From Sphingomonas sanguinis (lineage in GTDB: Bacteria; Pseudomonadota; Alphaproteobacteria; Sphingomonadales; Sphingomonadaceae): a DNA stretch of 64,000 nt. Shown here piece by piece: positions 4,277 through 15,742 of this stretch. Within the stretch, counting starts at the first letter, position 1. Each line of letters begins with the position of its first letter. The DNA lies in NCBI RefSeq assembly GCF_019297835.1, contig NZ_CP079203.1, positions 345,001 through 409,000 of the forward strand. The letters run 5' to 3'. Below the pieces are notes generated by a model. The model was given only the letters and a program-made list of their open reading frames with translations. It had not been told where the DNA came from and did no database searches. The translations under genes were made by a program, and so were the position numbers.

Positions 4277-6457
<2,181 letters not shown>

Positions 6458-6621: not shown

Positions 6622-7656
6622 ATGATTCTGCACGAGGACATCCCCGTGATCATCTGTGTTCCGGCGCGCAACGAGGCGGCGCTACTGCCCCAGTTGCTGT
6701 CGGCGATCGCCGGACAGTCGATGGGCGGGAATGGCATGCACCTTTGCCTGTATCTCGACGATTGCCGGGACGGCAGCGGAGATATGCTCGATCACGCGCA
6801 GCCGGTCTTGCCCTTCGGCTTGACCGTGAAGCAGGGGCCACGGAATACGGAGCCCAATGCGGGCGTGGCCCGCCGTGCGGCGCTGGCCATGGGCCTGGAA
6901 CGGCTGGCGGGCGCAGAGGGGCTGTTGTTCACGACCGATGCCGACAGCATGCCGCATCGCGACTGGATCGCGGCGGGGCGTCGCGCCCTCCAAGAGGCGG
7001 ACGTGGTCGCGGGGCGTATCCTCCGCTTCGACGCGACGCGCGATCCCCGGCAGTGCCGCATCGAACGCTATTACGATCGGCTCCACCGATATCGCCGCCT
7101 GGTCGACCCGGTGCCATGGGAGGCGCGGGATACCCATCATTTCGGCGGGGGCGCGAATATCGCGGTCCGCGCCTCCGCCTATTGCGCGATCGGCGGGTTC
7201 CGGCCCCTGCTATCCGGCGAAGATGCCCGGTTTCTCGACGACGCGGCGAGGGCCGGTTTTCGCGTCCGCCGCGACGGTGCGATGGCGGTCGACACGTCTT
7301 CCCGGCGAGACGGACGGGTTGCCGGGGGCCTTGCGGACGTGTTGCGAGCACTGGATCATGGCGAAGTGACATCCATGGCCGACCCGCGCGGATCGGCATG
7401 GCAATGGCACGCACAGGCGGCCGCGAGACGGAGTTTCACGACGATCGACCGGATCGATGTCCGCGTGGCGCTGGGGCAAATTCTGGGCCTGGCGGCGGAT
7501 CATGTTCTGGGCGTCGCGCGGGACTGTCCCAATGACGAGGCATTCGCCATGCGTATCGTTCCCGCGCCCTCGGTCCATGCCGCCATGGTGTCGCTGACGG
7601 CGGCCGAAGATCTTCTGGGCGAACTGGAAAGCCGCTATTGCGAGGTCGCGGCATGA
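6622..7656 (+). CDS. Family 2 glycosyltransferase, first gene of a four-gene operon
   Basis: A 344-residue cytoplasmic GT-A-fold glycosyltransferase without obvious membrane spans. The N-terminus has the nucleotide-sugar binding start VIICVPARNEAALLP and an LDDCRDGS motif near residue 45. The metal-binding DAD triad is D106-A-D108 in FTTDADSMP, followed by RDWI. FGGGANIAVR near residue 175 is the typical acceptor-side motif. The donor and acceptor are unknown. The stop TGA overlaps the next gene's ATG by 4 bp, implying translational coupling. The set GT2, acyl-CoA dehydrogenase, PIG-L, NodS-like methyltransferase recurs in alphaproteobacteria to my recollection, but its product is not established. 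Confidence 0.88.
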   Translation: MILHEDIPVIICVPARNEAALLPQLLSAIAGQSMGGNGMHLCLYLDDCRDGSGDMLDHAQPVLPFGLTVKQGPRNTEPNAGVARRAALAMGLERLAGAEGLLFTTDADSMPHRDWIAAGRRALQEADVVAGRILRFDATRDPRQCRIERYYDRLHRYRRLVDPVPWEARDTHHFGGGANIAVRASAYCAIGGFRPLLSGEDARFLDDAARAGFRVRRDGAMAVDTSSRRDGRVAGGLADVLRALDHGEVTSMADPRGSAWQWHAQAAARRSFTTIDRIDVRVALGQILGLAADHVLGVARDCPNDEAFAMRIVPAPSVHAAMVSLTAAEDLLGELESRYCEVAA

Positions 7657-8651
7657 CGATGATGGCCGATCAACTGAAAGACGCGATCGCGGGCCCGGGC
7701 TGGGCCGATGATCCGCCGGGCGATCCGCAAACGGCGGACGAACTGATCGCGCTGTTGACGGGGCTATATGAGATCGGTCGCTGCGATCTTCCGCTCGCTC
7801 GCCTGGTCGAAGGGCATGTCGATGCCGTGCAGATCGTCCGGCGCTACGGCACGGCCGCGCAGGTCGACATGCTGCGCCGTGCCTTCGGACGTGGTGCGAC
7901 GCTGGGCGTGTGGAATGCCGCGCTGCCGGGCGAGGCGCTGCGGCTGGACGACGGGCGGCTGAGCGGCGGCAAGAGCTATGCCTCGGGGGCGGGTGTGCTG
8001 AGCCATGCGGTGGTCACGGCGGACACGTCTGCGGGCGTGCAATTGCTCCTCCTTGACCTTTCGCGCGTGCCACCGGCGATCGACACCGATTGGTGGCGGG
8101 TGATCGGCATGCAGCGATCCGAAACGCATCAGGTGCGCTGGGATCATGCGCCGATCACCGACGCGGATCGGATCGGCCAACCTGACAGCTATGCGCGCGA
8201 GCCCTTTTTCAGCGGCGGCGCGCTGCGTTTCGTGGCGGTTCATGCGGGCGGGGTGGCGGGCATCTGCGACCTCAGTCGCAATCATCTGGTGAAGACGGGG
8301 CGCGCCGACGACCCCTTCCAGGCCGCCCGGATGGCCGAGCTGTTCGCACTGGCCGATGGTACCGCCGCCGTCGTGCGGCGGACGGCGCGGATGTGGTTCG
8401 AGGATGTCGACCGGGGGGATGAGCCGCGGCTGGCGCGCGTGGCAGCCGCCCGACTGGCGGTGGCCGAGGCGGCCGAGCGGGCGATGGTCGTGGCGCGCGA
8501 GGCGGTGGGGCTGGCTAGCCAGTTCCATAGCCATCCTCTGTCGGCCATGCTCAGCGATCTGGCGGTCTATCTCCGCCAACCCGCCCCCGACGCCCAAAGG
8601 CTCCGCGTCGGTCGCGCGGTTCGACAGGGTCTATTGGTGCCCGCCTTTTGA
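7653..8651 (+). CDS. Acyl-CoA dehydrogenase-like protein
   Basis: A 332-residue protein related to the FAD-dependent acyl-CoA dehydrogenase superfamily. The middle beta-domain (LDDGRLSGGKSYASGAG) and the C-terminal helical bundle (AVAEAAERAMVVAREAVGLAS) are visible. It is shorter than the usual 380-400 residues, and I cannot identify the catalytic Glu, so it may act on an unusual substrate or not as a CoA-ester dehydrogenase. The start at 7653 is chosen because ATGA overlaps the glycosyltransferase stop. Its TGA overlaps the TTG start of the deacetylase gene by 4 bp. Confidence 0.8.
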   Translation: MTMMADQLKDAIAGPGWADDPPGDPQTADELIALLTGLYEIGRCDLPLARLVEGHVDAVQIVRRYGTAAQVDMLRRAFGRGATLGVWNAALPGEALRLDDGRLSGGKSYASGAGVLSHAVVTADTSAGVQLLLLDLSRVPPAIDTDWWRVIGMQRSETHQVRWDHAPITDADRIGQPDSYAREPFFSGGALRFVAVHAGGVAGICDLSRNHLVKTGRADDPFQAARMAELFALADGTAAVVRRTARMWFEDVDRGDEPRLARVAAARLAVAEAAERAMVVAREAVGLASQFHSHPLSAMLSDLAVYLRQPAPDAQRLRVGRAVRQGLLVPAF

Positions 8652-9301
8652 AGCTGGATATCAAAGCCGTTGGCCGCGCGATTGTCGTCGCGCCCCATCC
8701 CGATGACGAGGTCATCGGAGCCGCTGGCTTGATGCGGGCCTTGCGGCGGCAGGGCAGTGTGGTCCGGGTCATCGTGGTCAGCAACGGTGCCGCGTCGCAT
8801 CCCAACAGTGGCGCATGGCCCCCCGAACGGCTAATTGCCGCGCGTCGCCGGGAAAGCCTGTTGGCGCTCCGCCGTCTGGGGGTAGCGCGTGATCACGTGA
8901 CCTTTTTGGGGCTGCCCGATGGCGGCCTTTCTGCGTGCGCGGTGCTGTGTCGCCAGCGGCTGAGCCGAGCGATCCGTCAGTGCCTGGATCTGGACATGAT
9001 CGTCGGACCCGCCATGACCGATGCGCATCCCGATCATCGGGCCGTGGCGGCGGCGCTTCGGGATACTCGATTCGACGGACGACGCATGACCTATCAGGTC
9101 TGGCCGCCGCAACGCGCGAGGGTCGCCCGAGGCCGGACCGTTGCGCTGACGGGCGGGGCGGCGGCGAAGCGATCGCTGATCCGGATGCATCGCACCCAAT
9201 TGGGGGCGATCACCGACGATCCTCACGGCTTTGCGATCGCACGCCATGAACTCGCGGTCTTCGCGCACCCGGTCGAACAGTTCGTCGAGCAGGGGCGATG
9301 A
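8648..9301 (+). CDS. PIG-L/LmbE-family deacetylase
   Basis: A 217-residue zinc-dependent N-deacetylase of the PIG-L family, which removes acetyl from N-acetylglucosamine-type groups in GPI anchors, mycothiol and bacillithiol. The zinc motif HPDDE is at residues 17-21 in VAPHPDDEVIGAAGL, and the second motif HPDH at 127-130 in TDAHPDHRAV. The start is TTG, chosen because it gives the TTGA overlap with the previous stop and places the HPDDE motif at the usual depth. Its stop overlaps the methyltransferase ATG by 4 bp. The substrate probably carries an N-acetyl sugar added by the neighbouring glycosyltransferase (inference). Confidence 0.9.
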   Translation: MKLDIKAVGRAIVVAPHPDDEVIGAAGLMRALRRQGSVVRVIVVSNGAASHPNSGAWPPERLIAARRRESLLALRRLGVARDHVTFLGLPDGGLSACAVLCRQRLSRAIRQCLDLDMIVGPAMTDAHPDHRAVAAALRDTRFDGRRMTYQVWPPQRARVARGRTVALTGGAAAKRSLIRMHRTQLGAITDDPHGFAIARHELAVFAHPVEQFVEQGR

Positions 9302-9933
9302 GGCCTATCGATCTTACGGGTTTTGCCGAGAAATTCGCGGCCCATGACGACCCCTGGCGTACCTATTCTGACCGCGACGAAGCCGTGAAGCGTGCGGCGA
9401 TCCTGCATGCCCTGGGGCCAGGCCCCCTTGGCCGCGTCCTGGAGCTGGGAAGCGGCAACGGATCGAACAGTCGGGTCATCGCCGCCCGCGCCTTGCGTCT
9501 TCATGCGACGGAGGGGACCGTCGAAGGTACGGCTCTGACGGCCCGCGCCATCGCGGACCGTCCCCGCGCGCGTGCCATCCGCTTGGCCTTGCCTGCACGC
9601 TTCCCGCAGAGGGACTATGACGCGATCGTGATCGCGGAACTCCTCTATTATCTTGCCCCGCAAGCGATGAGGCACGTCGCCAAATGCGTCGCCCAGGCGC
9701 TACGCCCCGGCGGACGACTGGTGCTCGCGCATCACCGGATCGACTATTACGACTTCGCGCAACACGCAGCCGGGATACAGCAACGCTTCCTCGATCTGAC
9801 TGACCTGCCTTGGCAAACAGATACGGTGCGTCGTCGAAAGAACTGGCATGTCATTGTCGCACGCCCAATTTGCAAGCCAAACCCCGGCGGCCAGCCCAGC
9901 TATAGCTTTCATTCTCCCGCATTCCGGCGCTAG
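9298..9933 (+). CDS. NodS-like class I SAM-dependent methyltransferase
   Basis: A 211-residue methyltransferase. The SAM-binding motif I is VLELGSGNGSNS near residue 45. The DPWRTYSDRDEAVKRAAIL stretch upstream, IVIAELLYYL near residue 115 and LRPGGRLVLAHH near 140 resemble NodS, which N-methylates the free amino group of the deacetylated terminal glucosamine in Nod factors. Following a deacetylase in the same operon, methylation of a newly freed amine is the natural reading, but this is inference. It is the last gene of the operon. Confidence 0.85.
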   Translation: MRPIDLTGFAEKFAAHDDPWRTYSDRDEAVKRAAILHALGPGPLGRVLELGSGNGSNSRVIAARALRLHATEGTVEGTALTARAIADRPRARAIRLALPARFPQRDYDAIVIAELLYYLAPQAMRHVAKCVAQALRPGGRLVLAHHRIDYYDFAQHAAGIQQRFLDLTDLPWQTDTVRRRKNWHVIVARPICKPNPGGQPSYSFHSPAFRR

Positions 9934-10020: not shown

Positions 10021-10926
10021 TCATTGCGGACGCTCCGATCCCGCCCTGATATAGGCGGTCATGCCGCTGACCAGTGCATCAAAGACCAGCCGCATCCGCC
10101 TTGTCGAGCGCAGGTCCTCATGCATGGCGATCCAAACGGGCAGATGGGCGTGGAAGGTTTCCGGCAGCACCGAGATCAGCGCCGGGTCACGGTGAGCTAT
10201 TGGGTCCTGCATCACACCGATCCCGCAGCCGGCGCGGATCAGCGCGATCTGGGCCAATTGGTTGTCGGTGCGCAGTGCAAAGGTGGGCAGGTCGGGCCAG
10301 GCCGCCTCGACCGATCGGATCGACGCCGCATCCCGATCGAAGCCGATGATCCCATGCCGCCCTAAGTCAGCGGCGCTATCAATCGACGCGGCGCGGGCGA
10401 GATATTCGCGGTGCGCATAGAAGCCCAGGCGGATGCGGCCCACTGGCTTGACGAGCAGCGCCTGTTGCCTTGGCTCCGTCATCCGGATCGCCAGATCGGC
10501 GTCGCGCCGCAGCAGATCGGACGGGGCGTTGGTGAGCAGCAGCTCGATCATCAAGCCGGAATGCTCCGCGCGCAGGGCAGCGAGGATAGGCGGCAGCACC
10601 TCGGCGCCGATCACCTCACTCACACTGATCCGGACGACGCCGGTCACCGCATCGGCGGGAGCGGAGGCGGTTCGCACCAACGCTGCCGCGGCGGCAGCCA
10701 TCGCCTCGACTTCCGACGCGAGCGCCAGCGCGGTCTCGGTCGGCTGCAGCCCGCGCGCCGAGCGTGTGAACAGCGCGCCGGCGCCAAGCGCCGCCTCCAG
10801 TTCCGCAATATGTCGCCCGGCGGTCGGTTGGGTGAGGCCGAGCGCGCGCGCCGCACCCGACAGGCTGCCCGCTCGCATGACGGCGTCAAAGGTGCGCCAC
10901 AACTCCCATCCGGGTCCGCTGTCCAT
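10021..10926 (-). CDS. LysR-family transcriptional regulator
   Basis: A 301-residue LTTR. The N-terminal winged HTH covers residues 5-65 (WRTFDAVMRAGSLSGAARALG, then QPTAGRHIAELE), followed by a periplasmic-binding-protein-like effector domain (VTGVVRISVSEVIGAEVLPPIL onward). The start at 10926 gives the normal LTTR length; the longer upstream frame is non-coding. It is divergent from the SDR gene with an 88-bp gap, the classic arrangement in which the LTTR controls its neighbour and itself. The effector is unknown. Confidence 0.9.
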   Translation of the reverse strand: MDSGPGWELWRTFDAVMRAGSLSGAARALGLTQPTAGRHIAELEAALGAGALFTRSARGLQPTETALALASEVEAMAAAAAALVRTASAPADAVTGVVRISVSEVIGAEVLPPILAALRAEHSGLMIELLLTNAPSDLLRRDADLAIRMTEPRQQALLVKPVGRIRLGFYAHREYLARAASIDSAADLGRHGIIGFDRDAASIRSVEAAWPDLPTFALRTDNQLAQIALIRAGCGIGVMQDPIAHRDPALISVLPETFHAHLPVWIAMHEDLRSTRRMRLVFDALVSGMTAYIRAGSERPQ

Positions 10927-11014
10927 ACGATCCTGTATAACTGCTCTGCATATTCTCGCAATTTCGGTTGGCGAGGATGGGGGCCATCTCTGCCTTCGCA
11001 ACGAGGAGGTGACC

Positions 11015-11980
11015 ATGAGCAAGGACACAAACACAAACACGGCGCTGGTGATCGGTGCGACTGGCGGCATCGGCGGCGAGGTGGCGCGGGTGTTGCTCGC
11101 CCGCGGCTGGGCGGTCCGCGCGCTCCATCGCGACCCGGCGCGGGCCCGGCTGAGCAACCCGGCGCTGGAATGGGTGCAGGGCGATGCCATGGACAAGGCG
11201 TCTGTCACTGCCGCTGCCGACCGCATGTCCGTGATCGTGCACGGTGCGAACCCGCCGGGCTATCGCAACTGGGCAGGGCTGGTACTGCCGATGCTCGAAA
11301 GCACGATCGCAGCGGCTACCGCGACCGGCGCGCGCGTGCTGCTGCCTGGTACGGTCTACAATTACGGGCCAGACGCGGGCGAGGCCGTCGACGAGGATAG
11401 CCCGCAGAACCCGGTGACCCGAAAGGGCGCGATCCGTGTCGAGATGGAGCGCCGCCTGCGCGCGGCGAGCCGGAACGATGTCAAGGCGCTGGTCGTCCGC
11501 GCGGGCGATTTCTACGGCCCCCGAAGTGGCAATAGCTGGTTGGCGCAAGGTATGGTGCCCACGCCCGGGCCGGTGAAGCGCGTATTCAATCCCGCGCGCG
11601 CGGGTACCGGCCATGCTTGGGCCTATCTGCCCGACCTCGCCGAGACGATGGTGCGCCTTCTCGAACGGCGCGACGCGCTGCCCGCTTTTGACAGCTTCCA
11701 TTTCGGCGGCACCTGGGTGGATGACAATCGAGCGTTTGCAGAGGCGATCCGCCAGGCGGCAGGCAAGCCGAACGCGCCGATTTACCCGTTCCCCTGGCCG
11801 GTGGTACACGCGATCGCGCCGTTCCATGAGACCGCGCGCGAGATGCGCGAGATGATCTATCTCTGGCGTCGGCCGCTCCGGCTGATCGACGACAAGCTGC
11901 GCCGCTTCCTCGGCGAGGTGCCGGCAACGCCGCTTGTCGAGGCGTTGCGGGCGACGCTTCAGGGTTTGGAACGGCTGTAA
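11015..11980 (+). CDS. NAD(P)-dependent epimerase/SDR-family protein
   Basis: A 321-residue extended/atypical short-chain dehydrogenase. The Rossmann glycine motif GATGGIGG is near residues 12-19, an NNAG-like region follows (VIVHGANPPGY), and PGTVYNYGP with downstream RVEMERRL is in the place of the YxxxK active site. C-terminal PWPVVHAIAPF suggests the NmrA/epimerase-like subgroup. The start is set by a strong ribosome site GAGGAGGT at 11003-11010. Divergent from the LysR gene, its likely regulator. The substrate cannot be told from sequence. Confidence 0.85.
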   Translation: MSKDTNTNTALVIGATGGIGGEVARVLLARGWAVRALHRDPARARLSNPALEWVQGDAMDKASVTAAADRMSVIVHGANPPGYRNWAGLVLPMLESTIAAATATGARVLLPGTVYNYGPDAGEAVDEDSPQNPVTRKGAIRVEMERRLRAASRNDVKALVVRAGDFYGPRSGNSWLAQGMVPTPGPVKRVFNPARAGTGHAWAYLPDLAETMVRLLERRDALPAFDSFHFGGTWVDDNRAFAEAIRQAAGKPNAPIYPFPWPVVHAIAPFHETAREMREMIYLWRRPLRLIDDKLRRFLGEVPATPLVEALRATLQGLERL

Positions 11981-12172
11981 GGATCCAGTGACTTTGCATC
12001 CGATGATGAACGAGCGGCAGTTCTGGAGCATCGGGCGCGCCGACCACAGCTTGCCTCCCGGCAATGAAATGCCCCGCTATCGTTCGTCCACGATCGTCAA
12101 CGTGCTCATCGCCATCGGATTTGTGCCGGTTCGTCGCCAGATGATCAGCGAGGAGAGAACATGGGTGTCAAA

Positions 12173-12397
12173 TCAATCCATAAGGACGGATGAGGCGGAT
12201 ATTTGAAGCTGCGCCTGTGAACGAGGACCGATCAGATGGCGGAGCAGTTCGACATCGTTCTGCAAGGCTACCGGATCTCTACCGTGGGCACTGCGAAGAG
12301 CTTGCTTCAGCCATTCACTCATATGCGGGTGGTCCAGCACCCAGGAGATACGCGCTTGCGCGATCGCCAGGAGCGCCTCGGGTTCGTGCGTTGCCAT
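12173..12397 (-). CDS. Small conserved-looking protein at the end of the dab operon
   Basis: A 74-residue soluble protein beginning MATHEPEALLAIAQARIS and containing WVLDHPHMSEWLKQALR. It appears mostly helical, with no signal peptide or transmembrane segment. It starts 22 bp after the DUF6671-like gene in the same direction, so it is probably the fourth gene of the dab operon. I do not recognise the family. Downstream on the opposite strand there is only a weak open frame (12007-12206) that I do not call. Confidence 0.6.
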   Translation of the reverse strand: MATHEPEALLAIAQARISWVLDHPHMSEWLKQALRSAHGRDPVALQNDVELLRHLIGPRSQAQLQISASSVLMD

Positions 12398-12419
12398 GGA
12401 ACAGCTCCAGGTCGATGGT

Positions 12420-13283
12420 CTAGGGGTTACAGCCCGGGCAATGGCCCGGGTCGGCGTGGGTCGCTTCGACAGGCCGCTCCAGCAACAGACCACAGCCTGC
12501 ACAGGCCCAGACGTCCGCGCGGATCAGCAGCGTGGCATCGCCGCACCAGGCACAAGGGAGTCCTGCGAGACGTTTGGAGACGGCGAAGCCGGGGCGCGCG
12601 CATTCGGGGCACGCACTGCGGGTCTTGCGCACCAAGTCCACCATGGCGCGCCCGATCGCCCGCATCCGTCGCGGGTTTCGGTGAGCGCGCATGTCGGTTT
12701 CCAAGAATGCGCTACCACATTGCTCAAGCGTTGCATCGATTGCCCGGATCAGTTCGTCCTGATCGTCTATCTCTTTGAACAGCATGAGATCGGGCGCGGC
12801 CTCGCCTTCCCGGATGCCCATGACGATCATGCCATGCGTGGGAAATCCGGCGCGCTCCGCAAAGGCGAGTCCGGTAGCCGAATCGCGCACGATGGTATGC
12901 GCGAAGTTCGTGCTCGACGTGGCGTTATGGCCAATCAGTTCCCATTCGTTGCGGCGGTCGCGGAGAACGACAATCTCCCGGTTCAAGGCGCAGAAAGGGA
13001 GGTATGGATGGGGGCCAAAACTCCCCTCGCTGGCGAGGGCAACTCCGATATCCGGGTACAGGTCGAAGGCGGCCGCGATTTTGGCCCGAGCCGCATCGAG
13101 CTGCGATCCGGCACGGGCGACCTCACGGCTGAACGTGCCGAACCGGTCGGTATCGAGACCGGCGGAGGCCTCCAGGCTCAGCCCAACGAAGCGGCAGGCA
13201 AGCGGCGCGATGATCCGTTCCTTGCCATGCATCGTCGCGAGAATGGCCTGGTCCCCATCATAGAGAGGTGCGGACCGGGCCAT
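12420..13283 (-). CDS. DUF6671-like protein with C-terminal zinc ribbon
   Basis: A 287-residue protein. The N-terminal 200 residues begin with YDGDQAILATMHGKERIIAP and include LATEGSFG-like and GHNATSSTNFAHT motifs that I associate with DUF6671. The C-terminal 75 residues contain four CxxC-type pairs (CPEC, CAWC, CAGC, CPGC), typical of rubredoxin-like or zinc-ribbon metal binding. It starts 44 bp after dabA in the same direction. No enzymatic function is known to me; a link to bicarbonate uptake is inferred only from the operon. The longer upstream frame overlapping dabA is ignored. Confidence 0.75.
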   Translation of the reverse strand: MARSAPLYDGDQAILATMHGKERIIAPLACRFVGLSLEASAGLDTDRFGTFSREVARAGSQLDAARAKIAAAFDLYPDIGVALASEGSFGPHPYLPFCALNREIVVLRDRRNEWELIGHNATSSTNFAHTIVRDSATGLAFAERAGFPTHGMIVMGIREGEAAPDLMLFKEIDDQDELIRAIDATLEQCGSAFLETDMRAHRNPRRMRAIGRAMVDLVRKTRSACPECARPGFAVSKRLAGLPCAWCGDATLLIRADVWACAGCGLLLERPVEATHADPGHCPGCNP

Positions 13284-13327
13284 CAGAATACCCTCGTCCG
13301 GCCGAGACCATGCGCAGCCCGCACCGG

Positions 13328-15742
13328 TCAGGCCGCCAGCTCGACGGGACGAGGATCGATGCCGCTTCCGCTTTCGGACTGCCAGGCAAGATCGCCCGCA
13401 TAGCGCCACGCAATTTGTCCTGCCTCGTCGAGTGCGAACAGGTGGAGCCAGCGATTGTCGAACAACGCCCGGACATCGGGATGCTTCGCCAGGACGGCCG
13501 ACATCGCTTCGCGTGGCGCTTCGATGCATATGGCAAGGCGCACCGGCTCATGCGCGAAACGCTCGCCATCATGCACCGATTGCCAGGGTAGCCCGACGCG
13601 CAGCGTTCCCCCGTTCCCCTCGACGACACCGATCCCGCCGACGACGTTGTGCAGCAGTTTGTTACCGCCCCCGAAGGTGTCAGGCGACACGGCGGAACCG
13701 TAATATTGGAGGCTGATCCAGCTCGCCACCACCACCGGCGCCGTCATGATGAGCTCCAGCACGCCGAAGCCGTCATCGGCCTGCCATTGATAGTCGTGAA
13801 GGAAAGCGCGGCCCCCAAGCGCAATATGTGCGGTGCGCGACCGTGGCGCCGCAATGAACGCCTTGCATCCGGCCAGCGCCCATTCCGGCCGTGTCTCCGA
13901 CCAGTCGCGGCCTCTCGCCGCGACCTGCTGCTGGCTGGTGGCCCGTGGCAGGCGAAGAGAACGCTCGCCACGCGCGACGACACCGGCGGCGGCCAGCCAT
14001 TTGTGGGCCCGGTCGATCTGAACATGCTGCTCCGGCGACGGAGATTGGTCCGTAAACAGCCGAACGTCATCCGTCGTCGTGTCGTGCAAGGCACCGATGA
14101 ACAGGGTTTCGGCCGGGATGGCGATACCCTGTGCCAGCAATCCTTGGCGCACCGCCGTATCATTCAGCAGGCTCGCGAGCAGGCGCGCATTGACCTCACC
14201 GGAATAGCCGCCACAGGCGCCGCATTGCAGGGCGCTCGCATGCGGATTGTTGACGACCTGTGCGCCATGCCCGACGAGGAGCACGAGCGGTGCGAACCGC
14301 TCGGTCAGCGACATCGCGCGCAAGATCGACGCCGCGGATGTGACGCGCGTGGCGATGTCCGGTGCCGGGTCTAGGTGCGGAAGGGGATCATTGTCCGTCG
14401 AGACTCCACGTAAGCCCAGAGCGTCGCGCACCAGTTTGGCGACGTAAAGCGGTCCCGATGCCTCGACGAACGCGAAGGACGATACCGCCGCCAGCTTGAA
14501 CCGGTCCCAAGCCCGCGATGCCCGCGCGCCATAGCGTTTCGCGCGATCCGCCGCGGCGTCGCCCTTGCCCCCCGCCGTCGAGCAAAGGCCAGGGTTGAGG
14601 AGGACAGGCAAACGCCGCTCGATGACATCGGAAGCAAAACGCCGGTGGGCGGCCGTCAGGCCGAAGAAGCCGGCAAAGCCCGCCGTCTCGATACGGGGAT
14701 CGACGGATTCCAGCGCACGCCGGAAAACCTCGGAGCGCACATCGATACAGAAAGCGGCGTGCAATTCGGGCGTCGGCCGCGGATCAGATGGGCGACCGGA
14801 GGCCAGCTTGCCCGCCAGATCACGCTGTTCCGCACGGTCGGCCGCTTCCTGGAGGATGGCATCGACGATCTGGTCGGCAGTCGGTGCCAGCGGCTCGGCA
14901 TAAGCCATCAAGGCCCTGCGCCATTGATCGCCGATCTGCGGCTCATATTGTGCCCAGAGCGCCTCCTCCCATAGGAAGCGGATCGTGAGCAGGTCGATGG
15001 TCGTGTCGTCGTTGTCGCCCGCCAGCTTGGCCTGCCACAGGCGATACCGTCCATAGTGCGACCAACCGCCCAGCGTCAGTAACAGACGATGGAAATAGGT
15101 CGGCATGGCAGCCGCCGGCAAGCGGAGCAGAGCGGCCGCACTCGCCAGCGTATCGGTGGCGGTGTCGGGCGCATCGGCGACGAAAGCGGCAAAGCCACGC
15201 AACCCGGCGATCTCAGGGGTGAGGTCATGGGTTGCAACTGCCCGCCAGGAGGCATAGGCGCCCTTGCCCTTCGGCAAGGTCCACGGCGCTTGCCCCTCGT
15301 CGAAATACGCGGCTGCCCAGGTTCCGATGCGTTCGGCGATGATCCCCGGCCAATCGATACCGGAAACCTTGGCGGCAAGATCGGCGATCGTCGGTAAAGG
15401 CGTCGGGGCGGGGGACGGGGCTTCCAGGGCGGACAGCAGCTGCGCCATGGACAGGTTCGCGCACGGCTGGGCAGCAAGCGCCGCCGCAAGATCGGGCGAG
15501 GTGATGATCCCGTTCGCGATGCGCTCGCGATACCATGCCCGCGGCATCGTAACCCTGGTGCCGCCAACGCGCGCCAGCAGCGCCGCCGTTTGCGCCAGCG
15601 TCAGACCGCTTTGGCCGAGATACGGATTGACGGCGACATTCGCCGCGAGCGGCCATGCCGGCGGAATGGCCAGGGTCGCCGCGTCCGCCGCCGCAAACAG
15701 TTCATGAAGACTGTGGTTTTGTTCGTTCGACAGCTTTGCCAT
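13328..15742 (-). CDS. dabA: DAB inorganic carbon transporter, carbonic-anhydrase-like subunit DabA (DUF2309)
   Basis: An 804-residue cytoplasmic subunit of the DAB complex, which hydrates CO2 to bicarbonate in one direction using the proton gradient. The beta-carbonic-anhydrase-like zinc residues are visible: C332 and D334 in [11 protein letters not shown]492 in LLVGHGAQ and C507 in LQCGACGG. The C-D and H-C spacings (2 and 15) equal those of Halothiobacillus DabA. The start at 15742 overlaps the dabB stop by one base (TAATG), showing coupling. A longer frame extending to 16987 lies antiparallel in phase over dabB and is not coding. Confidence 0.95.

Follow-up and report, generated by a model that had tools for sequence, protein, structure and literature searches.

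What do four genes that each overlap the next by 4 bp make together? The question is raised by a 64,000-nucleotide stretch of the Sphingomonas sanguinis genome (contig NZ_CP079203.1, forward-strand positions 345,001 to 409,000; the window, in what follows). Encoded there on the + strand, one after another, are a family 2 glycosyltransferase (GT2; window positions 6622..7656), an acyl-CoA dehydrogenase-like (ACAD-like) flavoprotein of 332 aa (7653..8651, from an ATG), a PIG-L/LmbE-type de-N-acetylase (8648..9301, from a TTG) and a NodS-like class I S-adenosylmethionine (SAM) methyltransferase (9298..9933). The overlaps, ATGA, TTGA and ATGA, are confirmed by the coordinates of the open reading frames (ORFs). 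(The automatic start of the ACAD-like ORF is an upstream TTG at 7638; the start that forms the overlap is the ATG at 7653.) The original prediction placed the four genes in one pathway with the logic of Nod-factor synthesis and the ACAD-like protein in the place of the acyl branch. The four ORFs are confirmed as real and as located, and as a conserved cassette rather than a chance co-location, a firmer case than was first made for them. The interpretation placed on them is partly supported overall, and two points go beyond it: a stress-gene neighbourhood and a spread over at least four phyla. The reading adopted here, tentatively and at somewhat less than an even chance, is of a predicted-soluble four-enzyme pathway whose product is an N-methylated, probably oxygenated amino-sugar glycoside that protects against stress.

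Conservation of the cassette

The survey searched 398 Pseudomonadota genomes (evenly drawn from a larger group, source genome included) with a 12-sequence profile of the ACAD-like protein, up to five candidates being scored per genome; a 22-sequence methyltransferase profile was run against what are apparently the identical 398 genomes, with up to eight. The first profile yields one match of at least 196 bits in each of 34 genomes (next score 93 bits) and the second yields 35 matches of at least 156 bits (next score 140 bits). These sets nearly coincide, in the sense that 33 of the 34 ACAD-like loci have a neighbouring methyltransferase and 33 of the 35 methyltransferase matches fall at ACAD-like loci. 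The exception among the 34 genomes (G336) has a truncated ACAD-like match and no methyltransferase. The two methyltransferases at which no ACAD-like gene was detected (G385:C2:1438032, locus L177, and G330:C5:110868, locus L178) are close relatives of the cassette enzyme; an NAD(P)H-binding NmrA-like gene lies near the latter.

Searched with hidden Markov models (HMMs), the 33 fetched ACAD-like loci other than the window contain the ACAD-like gene in 33 cases, the methyltransferase in 32, PIG-L in 28 (29 if a Pfam match in locus L098 is counted) and GT2 in 26, with all four together in 24; none of the four was found by HMM in 40 arbitrary control regions from 20 cassette genomes. The full set is present in all 20 same-genus loci (19 genomes) and in 12 of 14 plasmid loci. 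The order ACAD-like, PIG-L, methyltransferase is nearly constant; the GT2 gene may come first, last or reversed. Neighbours are occasionally fused in a single ORF (GT2-ACAD in L031, PIG-L-methyltransferase in L077). Pairwise protein distance matrices of the cassette genes correlate (r of 0.73-0.86; permutations reach at most 0.135) across 53 loci that have all four genes (the window left out, and L085, L086, L087 and L107 excluded as near duplicates). The cassette genes thus diverge in step, and the claim that the four genes constitute one conserved pathway is supported.

Some of these observations pull the other way. Shared descent alone also raises distance correlations between cassette proteins. 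PIG-L is not adjacent in 4 of the 33 survey loci (one of these genomes has a PIG-L gene 12 kb away, the other three have one elsewhere), and 7 of the 33 lack a detected GT2 (L102, among these 7, has another PF00535 gene).

An ACAD-like match is found in 22 of 37 genomes of the genus (some of them incomplete), so that the cassette is patchy even there; the weakest-scoring of the 22 matches (G031) lies in a short locus with only GT2 and the ACAD-like gene. The nearest named relative of the window's ACAD-like protein is also from S. sanguinis and is 95% identical. Searching with tblastn gives matches in 75 plasmid records, 46 of them covering at least 80% of the query, some being only general relatives. 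The original prediction was to be abandoned if the four genes were not kept together elsewhere. The four are conserved together in other genomes, so that this outcome did not arise. Annotated carriers belong to Deinococcus, Bradyrhizobium, Paracoccus, Sphingomonas, Sulfitobacter, Komagataeibacter, Rubrobacter, Kitasatospora, Acinetobacter and Comamonas, and HMMs match cassette relatives in unannotated records of Methylobacterium, Nostoc and Novosphingobium. Deinococcus, Nostoc and Actinomycetota lie outside the Pseudomonadota, which brings the count to at least four phyla. In D. radiodurans, a helicase gene separates the methyltransferase from the cassette and GT2 was not detected.

Enlarged cassette regions with additional glycosyltransferase-like genes occur at L102 (4275-8719), L039, L074, L077, L078, L097 and L120-L122. 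Pfam scans of representatives assign the additional genes to GT4, to a second GT2 and, by a weak match under the Pfam cut-off, to a GT28-like protein. A sucrose-phosphate-synthase/phosphatase-like protein is encoded upstream of the cassette region in L102.

The amino-sugar enzymes

The GT2 protein of the window (Pfam Glycos_transf_2, 33.4 bits) has a GT-A fold, and its DxD (D106/D108) and ED (E200/D201) motifs are invariant in family alignments. It is predicted to be soluble: its maximum 19-residue hydropathy is 1.37 and it has no membrane segment. Transferases of GlcNAc, GalNAc and GlcA are among its fold matches, but so are mannosyl, rhamnosyl and fucosyl transferases, and subfamilies are not separable by these searches. 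NodC-type enzymes, in contrast, are membrane glycosyltransferases with a QxxRW motif, which is absent from the window GT2 and from 8 other seeds of its family.

The deacetylase scores 94.4 bits against PF02585 (cut-off 28.2) and thus is of the PIG-L type, not the NodB type (PF01522). It is the only PIG-L match found in its genome. Its metal site is intact, with HPDDE (H17, D20) and HPDH (H130) invariant in 17 sequences (alignment A4); H17, D20 and H130 are the metal ligands by analogy with MshB. The structures nearest to the family profile are the LmbE-like protein 1uan, diacetylchitobiose deacetylase, GlcNAc-malate deacetylase and glycopeptide deacetylases. Several of these act on N-acyl glucosamine conjugates. 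The cassette protein agrees with PIG-L/LmbE deacetylases (diacetylchitobiose deacetylase, BshB, MshB) in metal motif and profile; unlike them, it sits with a GT2, a methyltransferase and a flavoprotein. Downstream of the cassette, L080 (12333-13238), L085, L086 and L087, which have TreY/GlgX-like neighbours, carry a second PIG-L gene; the second PIG-L of L080 deviates from the family at the near-invariant Asp19 and His127.

A pairing of glycosyltransferase with PIG-L is also what a low-molecular-weight thiol of the bacillithiol or mycothiol type, possibly N-methylated, would call for, and the PIG-L profile does match GlcNAc-malate deacetylase (BshB, 62 bits) and MshB (48 bits); oxidative-stress genes among the cassette's neighbours would also fit. 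On the other hand, the cassette glycosyltransferase is a GT2, and BshA and MshA are GT4 enzymes; a Cys ligase is missing from the conserved set; and BshC was found in 0 of 12 cassette genomes tested (the control gives matches in 3 of 14 known genomes). A bacillithiol-type thiol was rejected as the main product on the BshC result, and a thiol of either type is very improbable.

The window methyltransferase, which has a DPW...E motif, matches several methyltransferase Pfam families and NodS (PF05401) at 32 bits (cut-off 24); it scores 38.8 bits against the NCBIfam NodS equivalog, far below the cut-off of 300. With the family profile as query, the structures matched are 4isc at 222 bits (named merely "Methyltransferase"), NodS (3ofj/3ofk) at 112.7 bits and the next characterised protein at 50.5 bits. 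By this profile, NodS is the nearest characterised relative of the cassette methyltransferase family. The N-methyl idea was to fail if the methyltransferase aligned with O- or C-methyltransferases rather than NodS; by the family profile this did not happen, though the window sequence taken by itself scores no better with NodS (34.7 bits) than with DnrK-type O-methyltransferases (up to 37.9 bits). Another methyltransferase of the source genome, moreover, scores higher on PF05401 than the window's (36.6 vs 30.9 bits). These two comparisons count against the proposed pathway. The window's own NodS match is weak, and it is the family profile that carries the link to NodS.

Two arrangements in other genomes bear on the methyl acceptor. 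In Rubrobacter, 44 bp separate the ACAD-like gene from a NodB-type (PF01522) deacetylase gene upstream of it, and PIG-L was not detected in the stretch. (The NodB-like protein, used as a phmmer query, has no match in any other of the 68 cassette stretches.) Proteins of ~1000 residues combine GT2, NodS-like and PF01522 domains in 3 of 3 complete cases examined (L174:3379-6384, L175:3947-7003 and L176:4528-7707; a further case, L179, is cut by a contig end with its last two domains visible); these 4 were taken from nine long-frame matches of the methyltransferase survey. The NodS-like domain of the tri-domain proteins is clearly related to the cassette methyltransferase (128-134 bits; hhalign probability 99.9), and the genomes that encode these proteins belong to the class of the source organism, one even to its genus. 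They bring together the same three activities as the cassette, but in one polypeptide, with a NodB-type deacetylase, with no ACAD-like gene detected beside them and with multiple further GT2-like genes in the cluster. Sugar deacetylases from two unrelated families are thus found in company with NodS-like methyltransferases. The Rubrobacter swap and the tri-domain fusions, as two independent swaps, support an amine as the target, and the cassette methyltransferase may N-methylate an amino sugar. Together with the family profile, they uphold the predicted logic of GT2, N-deacetylase and NodS-like methyltransferase. There are good grounds for the amino-sugar part of the original interpretation, though they stop short of proof.

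How far does the resemblance to Nod-factor synthesis go? The NodC-NodB-NodS likeness extends to sugar transfer, N-deacetylation and NodS-type methylation, and these steps are what speaks for a lipochitooligosaccharide product. The cassette differs in having PIG-L in place of NodB, a predicted-soluble GT2 without QxxRW, an additional flavoprotein and a stress-gene context. A NodA search in 12 of the 34 cassette genomes, in addition, found it in none (0 of 12); as a positive control, the same model matches 4 of 4 genomes with NodS-sized matches of 108-115 bits. Nod genes are also absent from the annotations of the loci read. A Nod-factor-like lipochitooligosaccharide is hardly credible as the product and is close to refuted. 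A Nod-factor-like lipid is likewise not supported.

The ACAD-like flavoprotein

The ACAD-like protein of the window matches no Pfam family; its Deinococcus and Bradyrhizobium relatives match Acyl-CoA_dh models. Its AlphaFold2 model (pLDDT 91.2) is a high-confidence ACAD fold. Gln309, invariant in family alignments A1 and A2, aligns with the catalytic Glu (YEG motif) of two dehydrogenases from the same genome (L125 and L126). The best structure matches of the family profile are group D flavin monooxygenases, MsuC at 79.6 bits, DszC at 77-78, TdsC at 74 and KijD3 at 71, and the best dehydrogenase scores 70.6. By profile, the protein thus appears slightly closer to ACAD-fold flavin monooxygenases than to dehydrogenases, and is possibly a flavin monooxygenase; on the proposed pathway, cassette genes now annotated as acyl-CoA dehydrogenase would probably be misnamed. 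Enzymes with the ACAD fold have been assigned to monooxygenase group D (PMC13352529), and KijD3 and DnmZ are described as glycoside-modifying N-oxygenases related to DszC (PMC5481743).

Several considerations temper the assignment of an oxygenase. Monooxygenases outscore dehydrogenases by a small margin (79.6 vs 70.6 bits), and the nitrososynthases 3mxl (59 bits) and DnmZ (58 bits) score under many dehydrogenases. For the fold, Foldseek and VIA rows tie monooxygenases with dehydrogenases, so that fold does not decide between them. Some dehydrogenases place the catalytic Glu elsewhere, which makes its replacement in the ACAD-like protein inconclusive. A conserved His and Ser, as seen in DszC, were dropped as oxygenase markers and are not diagnostic, because dehydrogenases of the same genome have both (the His by eye in L123). 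The cassette protein is also shorter than group D monooxygenases (332 aa vs 414-454), and no constant flavin reductase was found among the cassette neighbours scanned; the reductase-type neighbours in that set are an FMN_red protein near L098 and, among the Rubrobacter genes, a Pyr_redox_2 protein, and a reductase may be encoded elsewhere.

The ACAD-like protein might instead be a true variant dehydrogenase or oxidase whose substrate is an acyl group bound to CoA or a carrier; the product would then be an acylated or acyl-modified amino-sugar glycoside (a glycolipid). The tie in fold extends to ColB1, a carrier-tethered dehydrogenase, and the Pfam matches of relatives are to Acyl-CoA_dh models; the protein shares its overall fold with acyl-CoA dehydrogenases but has the invariant Gln where they have the catalytic Glu. 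Moreover, acyltransferase, carrier and thioesterase genes are absent from the recurrent neighbour representatives scanned, and an annotated thioesterase with a GNAT acetyltransferase lies near the cassette only in Komagataeibacter. This alternative is unlikely. The acyl branch as originally predicted lacks support, with the catalytic Glu missing and NodA absent from the 12 cassette genomes tested.

Two variants of the flavoprotein gene may be recorded. The D. radiodurans ORF (L030:4546-6885) has an N-terminal extension of ~390-400 residues that by eye resembles a glycoside-hydrolase barrel; no Pfam family matches the extension, and nothing related to it was found in the other loci or the controls. 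In L071, a locus without adjacent PIG-L, the ORF directly upstream of the cassette ACAD-like gene (7956-9323) encodes another ACAD-fold protein (PF08028, 76.9 bits).

Stress-gene neighbours and the proposed product

In the window, a catalase HPII-like (KatE) gene at 4277..6457 on the - strand lies divergent to the cassette, with 164 bp between it and the GT2 start. Its product scores 600 bits against PF00199 and 920 bits against NCBIfam PRK11249, whose equivalog cut-off of 1102 it does not reach. Stress genes were counted with 13 markers in 68 cassette loci (7 to 19.5 kb) and, by an identical search, in 40 control regions (19.5 kb). At least one marker is found in 36 of the 68 cassette loci and in 4 of the 40 controls. 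KatE occurs in 15 cassette loci and 1 control (the stricter search; looser ORF clustering put catalase-like ORFs in 17 loci). Markers present in cassette loci and in no control are GlgX-like (7 loci), TreY-like (6), Mn-catalase (4), DUF892 (4), sucrose-phosphate synthase (SPS)-like (3), Ku (3), Dps (3) and LigD (2). OtsA (5 loci, 2 controls), OtsB (3 and 2), a GH15 trehalase-like protein (4 and 2) and a ferritin-like protein (1 and 1) occur in both. (The names TreY and GlgX are our assignments, from alpha-amylase and isoamylase-type Pfam matches and size.) In Acinetobacter, catalase and trehalose-6-phosphate synthase genes lie near the cassette. Catalases, trehalose and sucrose synthesis, Ku/LigD and Dps adjoin the cassette more often than control regions, which suggests a stress role; for this reason the product probably protects cells under stress or in dormancy.

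The case for stress protection has its own weak points. The markers were picked after the cassette neighbours had been viewed, so that the choice was not blind. None of the 13 is present in 32 of the 68 loci, and Sphingomonas contributes 10 of the 15 KatE loci. No EcfG motif lies upstream of the operon in the window or in its Sphingomonas relatives; across 39 upstream regions there are 3 EcfG matches against 0.45 expected, and an EcfG general-stress promoter was not taken as support. A scan for sigma-70-like promoters of the operon found 0 sites, and a terminator scan gave 1 match against 2.2 in shuffles, that is, none above chance. On the 3' side of the cassette (window 10021-13529) are a LysR regulator ORF, an overlapping opposite-strand ORF with an SDR/NmrA-like domain and uncertain gene limits, and a DUF6671 protein.

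The trehalose genes raise the question whether the cassette tailors the disaccharide osmolytes (trehalose or sucrose) made next door, to give an amino-, N-methyl disaccharide derivative. The TreY-like, GlgX-like, OtsA and SPS-like counts favour this, as does gene order: in Comamonas the cassette lies between a trehalose-6-phosphate synthase gene and otsB, and in L086/L087 the order is TreY-like, GlgX-like, cassette. However, such genes are missing from the surroundings of most loci, the window's among them, and OtsA is found in two control regions as well, which leaves this alternative improbable. The treS and treY/Z operons of Pseudomonas syringae have been tied to leaf-surface survival (PMC8982409). 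Genes of the same types as treY and glgX of the P. syringae treY/Z trehalose operon adjoin the cassette in L080, L085-L087, L089 and L095 (names assigned as above); the main text of PMC8982409 has neither 'acyl-CoA' nor 'methyltransferase'. An open-licence PubMed Central search on the cassette or its trehalose setting returned no title or abstract start naming the cassette, which does not establish its absence from print.

The pathway to an amino-sugar glycoside can be put together as follows. GT2 would transfer an N-acetylated hexosamine to a cytosolic acceptor; PIG-L would then take off the acetyl group and the NodS-like enzyme would methylate the freed amine. The ACAD-fold flavoprotein would oxygenate the product, possibly at the amine in the manner of the sugar N-oxygenase KijD3, rather than desaturate a CoA thioester. 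The product would be a small amino-sugar glycoside that serves as a stress or dormancy protectant. A bolder extension, which we regard as a long shot, is that N-methyl, N-oxygenated (hydroxylamine- or nitrone-type) amino-sugar glycosides made by nod-like chemistry are a new, widely transferred class of stress metabolite, possibly redox-active protectants in desiccation- and radiation-tolerant bacteria, and that NodS-type methylation was recruited to symbiosis from, or alongside, the cassette.

A widespread and apparently uncharacterised gene set with clear enzymatic logic is a direct target for metabolite discovery. If the proposed pathway is right, Nod-like chemistry, in which an amino sugar is deacetylated and then methylated, is used far outside symbiosis and with exchangeable deacetylases. 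If the stress role is also right, the bacteria that carry the cassette would have an additional protectant beside trehalose and catalase.

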